This document shows, in pieces, positions 31,742-39,211 of a stretch of 64,000 nucleotides of DNA (position 1 is its first letter; the number at the start of each line of letters is the position of its first letter). The DNA lies in contig NZ_AOIV01000027.1 in the NCBI RefSeq assembly GCF_000337095.1, forward strand, positions 92,516-156,515, given 5' to 3'. This DNA comes from Halogeometricum pallidum JCM 14848. GTDB taxonomy: Archaea; Halobacteriota; Halobacteria; Halobacteriales; Haloferacaceae. The translations under genes and the position numbers were made by a program. The notes under the pieces were generated by a model. That model was not told the origin of the DNA and made no database searches. It was given only the letters and a program-made list of their open reading frames with translations.

Positions 31742-31831
31742 CCCGGCGGACCATCCGGAGCACTCGTCTCCCCTCCCGTCGGCTCCGCCCTTCATCGGTC
31801 ACGGACCGCCCGGACGAAAACGTTTTGTTGT

Positions 31832-31847
31832 TTTAGGCTAGCCTAAA
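31832..31847 (+). promoter_or_regulatory. Iron box 1, TTTAGG-CTAG-CCTAAA (SirR/DtxR-type operator)
   Basis: A perfect 16-bp palindrome matching the DtxR/IdeR core TTAGG-N-CCTAA. It sits four bases before the ATG of a mini-ORF at 31852 and about 75 bp before the next gene. A second box with the same arms and spacer occurs at 32284. Regulation by an iron-dependent SirR/Idr repressor is inferred from motif identity. Confidence 0.75.
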
Positions 31848-31851
31848 CAGC

Positions 31852-31914
31852 ATGCCCGGCGAAGCGACGGACGGAGCGGGACCGACGCGACGTTCCGAGA
31901 CGGGGCGGAGGTAG
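31852..31914 (+). CDS. Possible 20-aa mini-ORF after iron box 1
   Basis: The frame MPGEATDGAGPTRRSETGRR begins four bases after the iron box and ends eight bases before the next gene. It may be the leaderless start of this transcript. No protein evidence; it may only couple translation to the following gene. Confidence 0.25.
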   Translation: MPGEATDGAGPTRRSETGRR

Positions 31915-31921
31915 CGTCCCG

Positions 31922-32230
31922 ATGGCGGGAACGACGCTGATCGAGATACGCGAACATATCGAGGCGCTGGCGGGCGACGACGGGGAGTTCGCCGTCGTCT
32001 GCGGACGCACCGGCGAGCGGCCGATTCCGGTCGCGGGCGAGCGCTTCGAGACCCGCGCCGTCGCGCGGACCGCCGCGCGGGCGACCGAACAGTACCGCGC
32101 GGTGCTCCGCCGCTACGACCCGCAACTGCGCTTCTACGACCTCGTCGTCTGTCAGCACGTCGGCGGGGGTAGCCGGAGCCGAGCGGACGCTCGCGGCGGG
32201 CGGACGAGCCCCGGTTCCAACGCTCGGTGA
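31922..32230 (+). CDS. Small unknown protein under iron box 1 (possibly DUF7552)
   Basis: This 102-residue protein starts MAGTTLIEIREHIEALAGDDGEFAVVCGRTGERPIPVAG, and its middle RTAARATEQYRAVLRRYDPQ is helical. I recall it as a haloarchaeal small-protein family (possibly DUF7552), with no known function. The C-terminal 30 residues (GGGSRSRADARGGRTSPGSNAR) are Arg/Gly/Ser-rich and basic, unusual for a halophile. The cysteines VVCGRTG and VVCQHVGG could bind metal. The gene lies under a perfect iron box, so iron regulation is likely. Confidence 0.7.
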   Translation: MAGTTLIEIREHIEALAGDDGEFAVVCGRTGERPIPVAGERFETRAVARTAARATEQYRAVLRRYDPQLRFYDLVVCQHVGGGSRSRADARGGRTSPGSNAR

Positions 32231-32283
32231 CCGCGCTGTTCTCCCGTCCCGTCCCGCCCGACTCGAACCGCTTCCTTTTTCAC

Positions 32284-32299
32284 TTTAGGCCCACCTAAA
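32284..32299 (+). promoter_or_regulatory. Iron box 2, TTTAGG-CCCA-CCTAAA
   Basis: The same arms and spacer as iron box 1, imperfect only in the 4-bp core. It ends eight bases before the ATG of the 57-aa gene at 32308, with a T-rich TTTTTC stretch at about -27 as TATA. Overlap with the start region implies repression when iron is bound. Confidence 0.72.
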
Positions 32300-32307
32300 C
32301 ACTCGTG

Positions 32308-32481
32308 ATGAGCGTCGAACGACGACCGTCCGAGGAGAGTTCGCCGAAGTCCGAATCGGTCGCTACGCCGCAGGTGTCCGTCTGCGAGAGCCGTCCCGGC
32401 CGGTCGGTCTTCCTCGAATCGGGGAACGCCGACGGGTGGATAGCCACCGACCTGTCCGTCTCCGTGAGCGAGGAACGATGA
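32308..32481 (+). CDS. 57-aa small protein under iron box 2
   Basis: The frame MSVERRPSEESSPKSES, then VSVCESRPGRSVFLESGNADGWIATDLSVSV, is 57 residues long and overlaps the next gene by four bases (ATGA). The C-terminal half resembles a haloarchaeal small-protein family that I recall as DUF7331-like (GNADGWIATD). It has one Cys. Function unknown; the position shows co-expression with the amphi-Trp gene under iron control. Confidence 0.6.
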   Translation: MSVERRPSEESSPKSESVATPQVSVCESRPGRSVFLESGNADGWIATDLSVSVSEER

Positions 32482-32765
32482 GCGACGAGACGGACGCCGA
32501 ACGGACCGTGATTCGCTCGGGGCGCGACTTCGAGCAGGAGTTCCGCCTCGACGCGCGCGAGGCCGGGGAGTTCCTCGTCGCACTCGGCGAGCAACTCCGC
32601 GACGGCGACGAACTCACCCTCTCGACCGACGAGTGGGAGCTTCCCTTCTCCTTCGGCGAGCCCGTCGGAGTGGAGATAGACTACGAGGGCGTCGGCGAAC
32701 CCGAACTCGAAATCGAGATAGAACTGCCGGGCCGGACCGACGAGAAGGCCCCCGACGTCGACTGA
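32478..32765 (+). CDS. amphi-Trp domain protein
   Basis: This 95-residue protein contains an amphi-Trp domain (about 20-80): FEQEFRLDAREAGEFLVALGEQLRDGDELTL, the Trp pair-bearing STDEWELPFSFGEPVGVEIDYEGVGEPELEIEIELPG. The family is small, soluble and of unknown biochemical role, often near metal or stress genes. It overlaps the 57-aa gene and shares iron box 2. Start ATG 32478. Confidence 0.85.
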   Translation: MSDETDAERTVIRSGRDFEQEFRLDAREAGEFLVALGEQLRDGDELTLSTDEWELPFSFGEPVGVEIDYEGVGEPELEIEIELPGRTDEKAPDVD

Positions 32766-36860: not shown

Positions 36861-37934
36861 CTACGTCAGTGTGACCGGCGGCATGTCGAGAAACGCCGTT
36901 TCGTAGCCCTCGTGTCGGGCGACCTGCGGGGGAACGTCGACCGTAATTTCGAGCGTCTCCGACCCGGTCAGACCGGGGGCCGGGGCGCCGTAGTGAAAGC
37001 CGAGTTCGGGGTCCAACCCCGCCGCCAGCGACCCCGAGAACGACGCGCCGCCGTCGGCGGAAGCGCCGAGCGCCATCCCCGGTATCGCCAGCCGGTTGTA
37101 CGGCGTCCGCGGCGAGACGGCGAGGTACGGGTCCTCGCCGAACCGCGCGGCCTCCACGATGGACGCGAGGAACACCGCGTCGCCCGTGCTCCCGCGTCCG
37201 AGTGCGGTGCCGGGGAGTCGCTCCGGCGCTCGACCGACCGGTATCGCCTCCATCTCCATGGGCTCCACCGCGCCGCGTTCGCCCTTCCGGTCGTCGAGCA
37301 TCCGGTAGCTGACGTCGTTCAGCGCCCGCGCGGAGAACTCGAAGCCGACGGCGCCCTCAGCGGGGGTGCCGAACTTCCCCTCGTAAGCCCCGAAGCGGTT
37401 CGCGTCGACGCCGCCGACGCTCACCGCTACGTCGTACGCGCCGTCGCCGTCCAGCGGGAAGTTCGCGCCGTAGTGGACACCCATCCGCTGTGAGAGCATC
37501 GGGTAGATGACCTCCTGGCTCACGAGTTCCCCTCCCTTCGATATCTCCAGCGAGAGGCCGGTGTTCGGAACCACGCGCCCCGTCTCGGGATCCCACACCG
37601 ACGCCATCAGGTGGACGCTGTCCGCCTCGATTATCGCCGTCTCCCTCGCGACGAACGCGCCGTCCTCCTCCTTCTCGACGACCCAGAAGCGGTGCGGGTA
37701 CGAGTACGCCACGCCCGCCCGCAGGTCGCCCACGTCGGTCGTCCCGGCCGTCTTCATCCCCTCGACGTGCGTCGGGGCGTAGACGGCGTCCGGGCGGTTC
37801 TCGACGAGGGGCGGTTCGCCGCCCGCCCCCGTCGACGCCCGCTTCGTCTCGAACAGGTCCGACCCGCCGAGACACCCGCCGACCGCGCCGGCCGTCGCGG
37901 CCCCCGCAACGGCGAGAAACCGTCGTCGTTTCAT
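36861..37934 (-). CDS. P19-like Tat lipoprotein, putative metal-binding (DUF7350-type)
   Basis: This 357-residue lipoprotein has RRRFLAVAGAATAGAVGGC as signal with lipobox GGC. Residues about 75-180 resemble the P19/Tp34 iron-transport fold: YSYPHRFWVVEKE, VHLMASVWDPETGRVVPNTGLSLEI and LSQRMGVHYGANFPLDGDGAYDVAVSV. The C-terminal half repeats a similar sandwich ending ITVDVPPQVARHEGYETAF. I recall it as the DUF7350 family. P19 proteins bind Cu and support iron uptake; the local metal genes (ZIP, multicopper oxidase) agree. Function is inferred. Confidence 0.7.
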   Translation of the reverse strand: MKRRRFLAVAGAATAGAVGGCLGGSDLFETKRASTGAGGEPPLVENRPDAVYAPTHVEGMKTAGTTDVGDLRAGVAYSYPHRFWVVEKEEDGAFVARETAIIEADSVHLMASVWDPETGRVVPNTGLSLEISKGGELVSQEVIYPMLSQRMGVHYGANFPLDGDGAYDVAVSVGGVDANRFGAYEGKFGTPAEGAVGFEFSARALNDVSYRMLDDRKGERGAVEPMEMEAIPVGRAPERLPGTALGRGSTGDAVFLASIVEAARFGEDPYLAVSPRTPYNRLAIPGMALGASADGGASFSGSLAAGLDPELGFHYGAPAPGLTGSETLEITVDVPPQVARHEGYETAFLDMPPVTLT

Positions 37935-38320: not shown

Positions 38321-39211
38321 CTATCCGAGCACCACGTCGAGCGTTAGCATGACGGCGGCGCCGGCCATCATTCCGAGCGTCGCGAGTCGTTCGTGGCCGT
38401 GCATGTGCGTCTCGGGGATTATCTCGTCGCCGATGACGTACAGCATTCCGCCGGCGGCGAACCCCATCGCGTACGGAAGGACGGGGGCGGCGATGACGAC
38501 GGCCCACGCGCCGAGAACCGCCAGCGGTATCTCCACGGCGCCCGCGCGGATGCCGGCGACGGCGGCGTAGTACCGCCGGCCCATCCCGGCGTTGATGGCC
38601 GCGACCGAGACGGCTAACCCTTCGGGGATGTTCTGGATGCCGATGGCGAGCATGAGGGCGATGGCGTTGCTCACGTCGCCCGACCCGAATCCGACGCCGA
38701 CGGCCAGCCCCTCGGGCATGTTGTGGAGCGTGATGGCGACGGTGAACAGCAAGACGCCGAGGACGCGCGAGTCGGCGTCCCGCGCCATCTCCTCGGCCCG
38801 CTTCATCCCGCCGTCGGTCTCGGCGCGTTCGGACAACCGCCCGCTGACGAGGGGGCCGACGTACCGAACCCAGTGTTCGGCTTGGTCGAGGAGGGCGACG
38901 CCGAGGACGAACCCGACGAGCACCGGGACGATGCCGGAAAACTCGAACCCGCCGACCGCGAAGGGGCGGTACGAGGGGTCGGAGGCGAACTCGATGCCGG
39001 GCAGCAACAGACTCGTGAAACTCGCAGACAGCATCACGCCGGCGGCGACGCCCAACGCGCCGTCCAGCGCGCGTTCGGTCGGGTTCCGCCACACTAACAC
39101 CAGCATCGCCCCGAGCAGATTCATCCCGGCGATGACGACGCCGCCCGCGAGTCCCTGTATCACGGGGTTCGTTCCGACCAGGTCGACGAACGCCTGTTCT
39201 ACGGACGCCAC
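38321..39211 (-). CDS. ZIP-family metal transporter
   Basis: This 296-residue transporter has eight helices. The metal-site helix pair holds LFTVAITLHNMPEGLAVGVGF (about 155-175) and AIGIQNIPEGLAVSV (about 188-202); the HNxPEG and QNIPEG signatures belong to the GufA-type ZIP branch. A His-rich TPETHMHGHERL loop near the C terminus (about 270) may sense or guide metal. Substrates in the family are Zn, Fe and Mn. It probably works with the P19-like lipoprotein or for general metal uptake. Confidence 0.92.
   Translation of the reverse strand: MASVEQAFVDLVGTNPVIQGLAGGVVIAGMNLLGAMLVLVWRNPTERALDGALGVAAGVMLSASFTSLLLPGIEFASDPSYRPFAVGGFEFSGIVPVLVGFVLGVALLDQAEHWVRYVGPLVSGRLSERAETDGGMKRAEEMARDADSRVLGVLLFTVAITLHNMPEGLAVGVGFGSGDVSNAIALMLAIGIQNIPEGLAVSVAAINAGMGRRYYAAVAGIRAGAVEIPLAVLGAWAVVIAAPVLPYAMGFAAGGMLYVIGDEIIPETHMHGHERLATLGMMAGAAVMLTLDVVLG

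Follow-up and report, generated by a model that had tools for sequence, protein, structure and literature searches.

Organization of the locus

The window, a stretch of 64 kb from Halogeometricum pallidum JCM 14848, harbors two putative transcription units of very small genes, each preceded by a palindrome of the form TTTAGG-N4-CCTAAA (Table 1). The arms of the two palindromes are identical, and both spacers comprise 4 nt. The initial annotation had described two palindromes with shared arms and 4-bp spacers, each within four to eight bases of an ATG, and the exact positions could be confirmed. The distances to the next ATG also agree (4 nt behind box 1 and 8 nt behind box 2), with the qualification that a mini-ORF encoding 20 aa, and not the DUF7552 gene, begins at the ATG behind box 1. 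No further match to the palindrome was found in the window, even when up to three mismatches were permitted. At this stringency about 2.4 matches are expected, while the two observed are both exact and lie only 452 bp apart. A chance origin of these two boxes is therefore far-fetched.

Table 1 Features of the region with the two palindromes (positions refer to the window)
Feature	Position	Strand	Basis
Putative BRE/TATA element of promoter 1 (CGAAAAC-GTTTTGTT)	31815..31829	+	Sequence and analogy with the aligned promoters
Putative iron box 1, TTTAGGCTAGCCTAAA	31832..31847	+	Identical 16-mer before the H. salinarum NRC-1 siderophore operon
Mini-ORF, 20 aa, product MPGEATDGAGPTRRSETGRR	31852..31914	+	Starts 4 nt after box 1, ends 7 nt before the DUF7552 start
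DUF7552 protein, 102 aa, without C-terminal DUF7551	31922..32230	+	PF24422, E=1.8e-35; alignment with congeners
Promoter 2: BRE (GAACCG) and TATA-like element (CCTTTTTC)	32265..32280	+	AACCG/CCTTTTT conserved in 23 non-redundant promoters
Putative iron box 2, TTTAGGCCCACCTAAA	32284..32299	+	Exact palindrome, conserved over species
Small DUF7331-like protein of 57 aa, product of the first cistron	32308..32481	+	PF24018, E=0.018, below cut-off; conserved partner
Amphi-Trp protein, 95 aa, second cistron	32478..32765	+	TIGR04354, PF20068; 4-nt ATGA overlap with the DUF7331-like gene

Two of the encoded proteins could be assigned by profile. The DUF7552 protein reaches 121.5 bits with PF24422 (cut-off 27), and the amphi-Trp protein passes the cut-offs of both TIGR04354 (53 bits, cut-off 31) and PF20068 (28.5 bits, cut-off 27) and has a tryptophan that is invariant in the alignment (Trp53). 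The product of the first cistron behind box 2 matches the DUF7331 profile PF24018 over most of its length, but with only 16 bits against a cut-off of 27. Because this score is below the curated cut-off, the protein is referred to as DUF7331-like. It has a conserved core, CESxPGxSVFLESGNTDGWIASD.

The box in this genome and in other haloarchaea

The full 16-mer box is present in 12 exact copies in the 4.38-Mb genome, compared to none of the reversed control pattern. The shorter pattern TTAGGN4CCTAA gave 15 sites and three reversed-control sites, and for the full box we counted 362 exact copies versus 6 controls, summed over 59 genomes of the order. Elsewhere in this genome, boxes precede the genes for four siderophore-type binding proteins (Peripla_BP_2), the start of an operon with a siderophore-type diaminobutyrate transaminase, and the gene for a SOUL heme-binding protein. 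Three proteins with the DtxR metal-binding/dimerization domain (PF02742) are encoded in the genome. In addition, an exact box is located in front of a gene for a 101-aa protein that contains only the DNA-binding domain of DtxR (PF01325; L005:1563-1868). Such a wHTH-only relative could modulate the full-length repressors. Unexpectedly, an iron-type box (L002, 1501-1514) also stands immediately before a gene whose product contains a reversibly glycosylated polypeptide (RGP) domain (L002, 1530-2702), which would add this gene to the regulon.

As outside comparison, we used pNRC200 of Halobacterium salinarum NRC-1 and a plasmid of Haloferax larsenii. In NRC-1, the operon for siderophore biosynthesis is immediately preceded by tandem boxes, and one of them is identical to box 1 of the window, spacer included. 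The siderophore operon of H. larsenii shows the same layout; the tandem boxes are 35-36 bp apart. In H. volcanii, the siderophore cluster is described as iron-regulated and induced by iron limitation (PMC7407949), and a "ferR regulon signal", attributed to Leyn and Rodionov 2015, is stated to be present at all fhu operons of this species (PMC11349517). The enrichment of the box, its siderophore-gene neighbors in this genome, its presence at the siderophore operons of NRC-1 and H. larsenii, and the iron regulation in H. volcanii jointly argue for an iron-regulon operator. The two palindromes are thus very probably binding sites of an iron sensor, and the initial reading as iron boxes gains from the fact that the same box marks siderophore genes in all three organisms compared, that is, in this genome, Halobacterium NRC-1, and H. 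larsenii.

Conservation of box 2 and the DUF7331-like/amphi-Trp dicistron

A scan for the box upstream of amphi-Trp homologues had been proposed in the initial annotation, and a lack of conservation of the boxes was named there as one outcome that would refute its reading; the boxes proved to be conserved. We examined 80 named loci of amphi-Trp orthologues. A box is present in all 35 dicistrons with a DUF7331-like partner, whereas of the 45 orthologues without this partner only 14 have a box upstream and 31 have none. A degenerate box was also considered for the latter 31 loci, but the best score was 8/12 and none was convincing. With 31 of the 80 loci lacking a box, iron control is therefore not universal among amphi-Trp orthologues. 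A phylogeny-corrected pair test of partner against box gave a median p of 0.5; this test is underpowered, with few supported pairs. Boxed pairs were found in the Haloferacaceae, Haloarculaceae, Natrialbaceae, Natronomonadaceae, and Haladaptataceae. The nearest named relative at this locus is Halogeometricum limi (L229), whose box equals that of another locus of the genus (L159). One contig labeled as a Salinivenus (Rhodothermota) MAG (L260) also carries a haloarchaeal boxed dicistron and is probably mis-binned.

Alignment of 23 non-redundant promoters revealed that the arms of the box are near-invariant (2.0 bits per position, 1.74 at the last one), while spacer and flanks vary. That the arms were kept while their surroundings diverged shows that they are under selection. 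AACCG and CCTTTTT (BRE/TATA) are found just upstream of the box, and the distance between box and ATG is 8 nt in 27 of the 35 dicistrons. This arrangement places the box between the TATA element and a leaderless start. At the background density of 2.7 boxes per Mb, the chance of finding one in a given upstream stretch of 450 bp is in the order of 0.1%, a value to be read with the reservation that related sequences are not independent. Given this conservation, which holds for both units across species, and the genome-wide enrichment, chance palindromes can be ruled out.

The box is not a general property of either protein family. None of 13 more distant amphi-Trp homologues has a box, and none was found within ~1.5 kb of 30 canonical DUF7331 loci; canonical DUF7331 members occur in 136 of 142 haloarchaeal genomes. 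The window partner, which matches the DUF7331 profile weakly, thereby differs from the box-free canonical members. These controls restrict the link to iron to a single orthologue subgroup of the amphi-Trp family. The possible iron role that had been suggested for the family is therefore narrowed to this subgroup and does not extend to the family at large.

Box 1, the mini-ORF, and DUF7552

Among 86 DUF7552 genes from 146 genomes, 57 are preceded by a box at a distance of up to 700 bp. In many cases this box directly abuts the start codon, and frequently a second box follows 34-36 bp further up. Where the box is located away from the start of DUF7552, the gap is typically taken up by a short ORF that opens 2-5 nt after the box and ends at this start. 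Such ORFs stop within 15 nt of the DUF7552 start in 17 of 23 cases, compared to 6.0 expected by shuffling (at most 12 in 2000 shuffles). At L112, L064, L077, L062, L055, and other loci, the mini-ORFs encode 7-37 aa, and the congeneric loci L157 and L158 also have the 20-aa mini-ORF of the window. As the encoded peptides differ in sequence from genus to genus, we read the mini-ORF as a leaderless entry cistron to which DUF7552 would be coupled, rather than as the gene of a functional peptide.

DUF7552-DUF7551 proteins share their N-terminal domain with the window copy, which differs from them in lacking DUF7551. At the corresponding place, the congener L157 (2209-3204) encodes a DUF7552-DUF7551 protein of 332 aa; both its DUF7551 part and the small ORF that follows in L157 and L158 are absent from the window, where the protein stops after DUF7552. 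With this part lost, the product in the window may be a remnant. The real target of box 1 would then be the full DUF7552-DUF7551 protein, the window copy would be decaying, and only box 2 would matter here. A second DUF7552-DUF7551 homologue exists at G000:C42 (L084), which has no box and would fit such a scenario. On the other hand, the DUF7552 frame, the mini-ORF, and box 1 are all intact, and boxed DUF7552 genes with a short frame occur elsewhere (e.g., L062 and L074). We regard the decay of this unit as quite conceivable, but give some preference to two working units. DUF7552 is encoded on the same strand within ~2.5 kb of amphi-Trp in seven named loci, in three of which both have their own boxes. 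This proximity links the two units.

A model for iron-dependent regulation

The region and its genome show three features of the haloarchaeal DtxR-family iron regulon: a palindromic operator in the promoter, the same operator at iron-acquisition genes of this genome, and encoded DtxR-family regulators. We infer that a protein of this family binds the box, and judging from the sequences it is highly likely that each palindrome serves as the operator of an iron-activated DtxR-family repressor, so that iron starvation would switch on both units. The candidate repressor is of the Idr/SirR/TroR/"FerR" type. With plentiful iron, a repressor dimer bound downstream of the TATA element and just ahead of the leaderless start would block transcription. 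Upon iron starvation it would leave the DNA, and two short transcripts could be made, the first consisting of the mini-ORF coupled to DUF7552 and the second of the DUF7331-like/amphi-Trp dicistron.

The opposite sign of regulation seems improbable. If the boxes were activator sites, or if the regulator activated in one condition, iron would raise expression. Some haloarchaeal DtxR proteins may indeed act positively, and the title of a Halobacterium study names interlocking positive feedback loops. But the box is located between TATA and start codon, where a block of RNA polymerase is expected, and the H. volcanii siderophore cluster is reported to be induced by low iron (PMC7407949), with the box being found at the siderophore operons of two other haloarchaea. 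Even less probable is a response to manganese through an MntR-like member of the DtxR family, since the remaining boxed genes encode siderophore-uptake binding proteins and siderophore biosynthesis, i.e., functions for ferric iron, although metal specificity differs within this family and, among the NCBIfam profiles, MntR models score best with the boxed wHTH protein (L005), each of them far short of its cut-off.

Repression by an iron-loaded DtxR-type protein would place the two units in the haloarchaeal DtxR-family iron regulon (Idr1/Idr2/SirR/TroR of Halobacterium and Haloferax; the "ferR regulon"). Here as there, a palindromic box is located at promoters of siderophore transport and biosynthesis, DtxR proteins are encoded, and tandem boxes 35-36 bp apart occur at the siderophore operon. 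In contrast, the members described here are small proteins without assigned function, and the likeness is based on promoter and gene context. In our literature search we found no paper naming amphi-Trp, DUF7331, DUF7551, or DUF7552; this search did not extend to the original regulon lists, in which members could already appear.

Predicted structure and possible function of the small proteins

The names amphi-Trp, DUF7331, DUF7551, and DUF7552 stand for families without a function, and the two boxed sets of small proteins gain a first testable role. For one amphi-Trp subgroup, the conserved iron operator supplies a condition (iron starvation), a partner (the DUF7331-like protein), and a genetic test in laboratory haloarchaea. 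Besides transport and siderophores, the haloarchaeal iron regulon would thereby also cover small proteins, which are easily overlooked by annotation and proteomics, in an arrangement of boxes that recurs in many related species.

The predicted model of the amphi-Trp protein consists of a helix and four strands (pLDDT 88). In a fold search of the PDB, no match reached E<=0.001 and the VIA-align Z did not exceed 2.2; nothing significant was obtained in a profile search of PDB sequences. The alignment does not contain any conserved Cys or His, and metal binding through these residues is therefore unlikely; the protein is not expected to be a classical metal binder. The predicted fold of DUF7551 (model of L157:2209-3204) resembles that of H-NOX/TRAPP proteins, with a best Z of 6.1 over 153 residues to guanylate cyclase, which is below the level of a safe match. 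Many H-NOX chains were found among the top matches, and a few TRAPP subunits were also listed. Cys122-His123 are near-invariant in DUF7551, but no conserved His was seen in the region that should hold the proximal heme ligand of an H-NOX protein. We take the likeness to the H-NOX/TRAPP fold only as a lead.

Tentatively, the DUF7331-like and amphi-Trp proteins could cooperate in the cytosol when iron is scarce, as a small pair with an accessory or regulatory part in the starvation response, an idea we put forward with considerable doubt. A bolder and clearly less probable version would be an unrecognized iron-sparing or iron-sensing regulatory pair, with DUF7552-DUF7551 as a third component of the same response with an H-NOX-like fold, all expressed from leaderless messages coupled through mini-ORFs. 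Separate from the two boxed units, and with no iron box nearby, the minus strand of the window (36861-37934 and 38321-39211) encodes a DUF7350 protein with a match to an Fe2+-transport domain (PF10634, E 3e-6) and, adjoining it, a membrane protein that may be a ZIP metal transporter.
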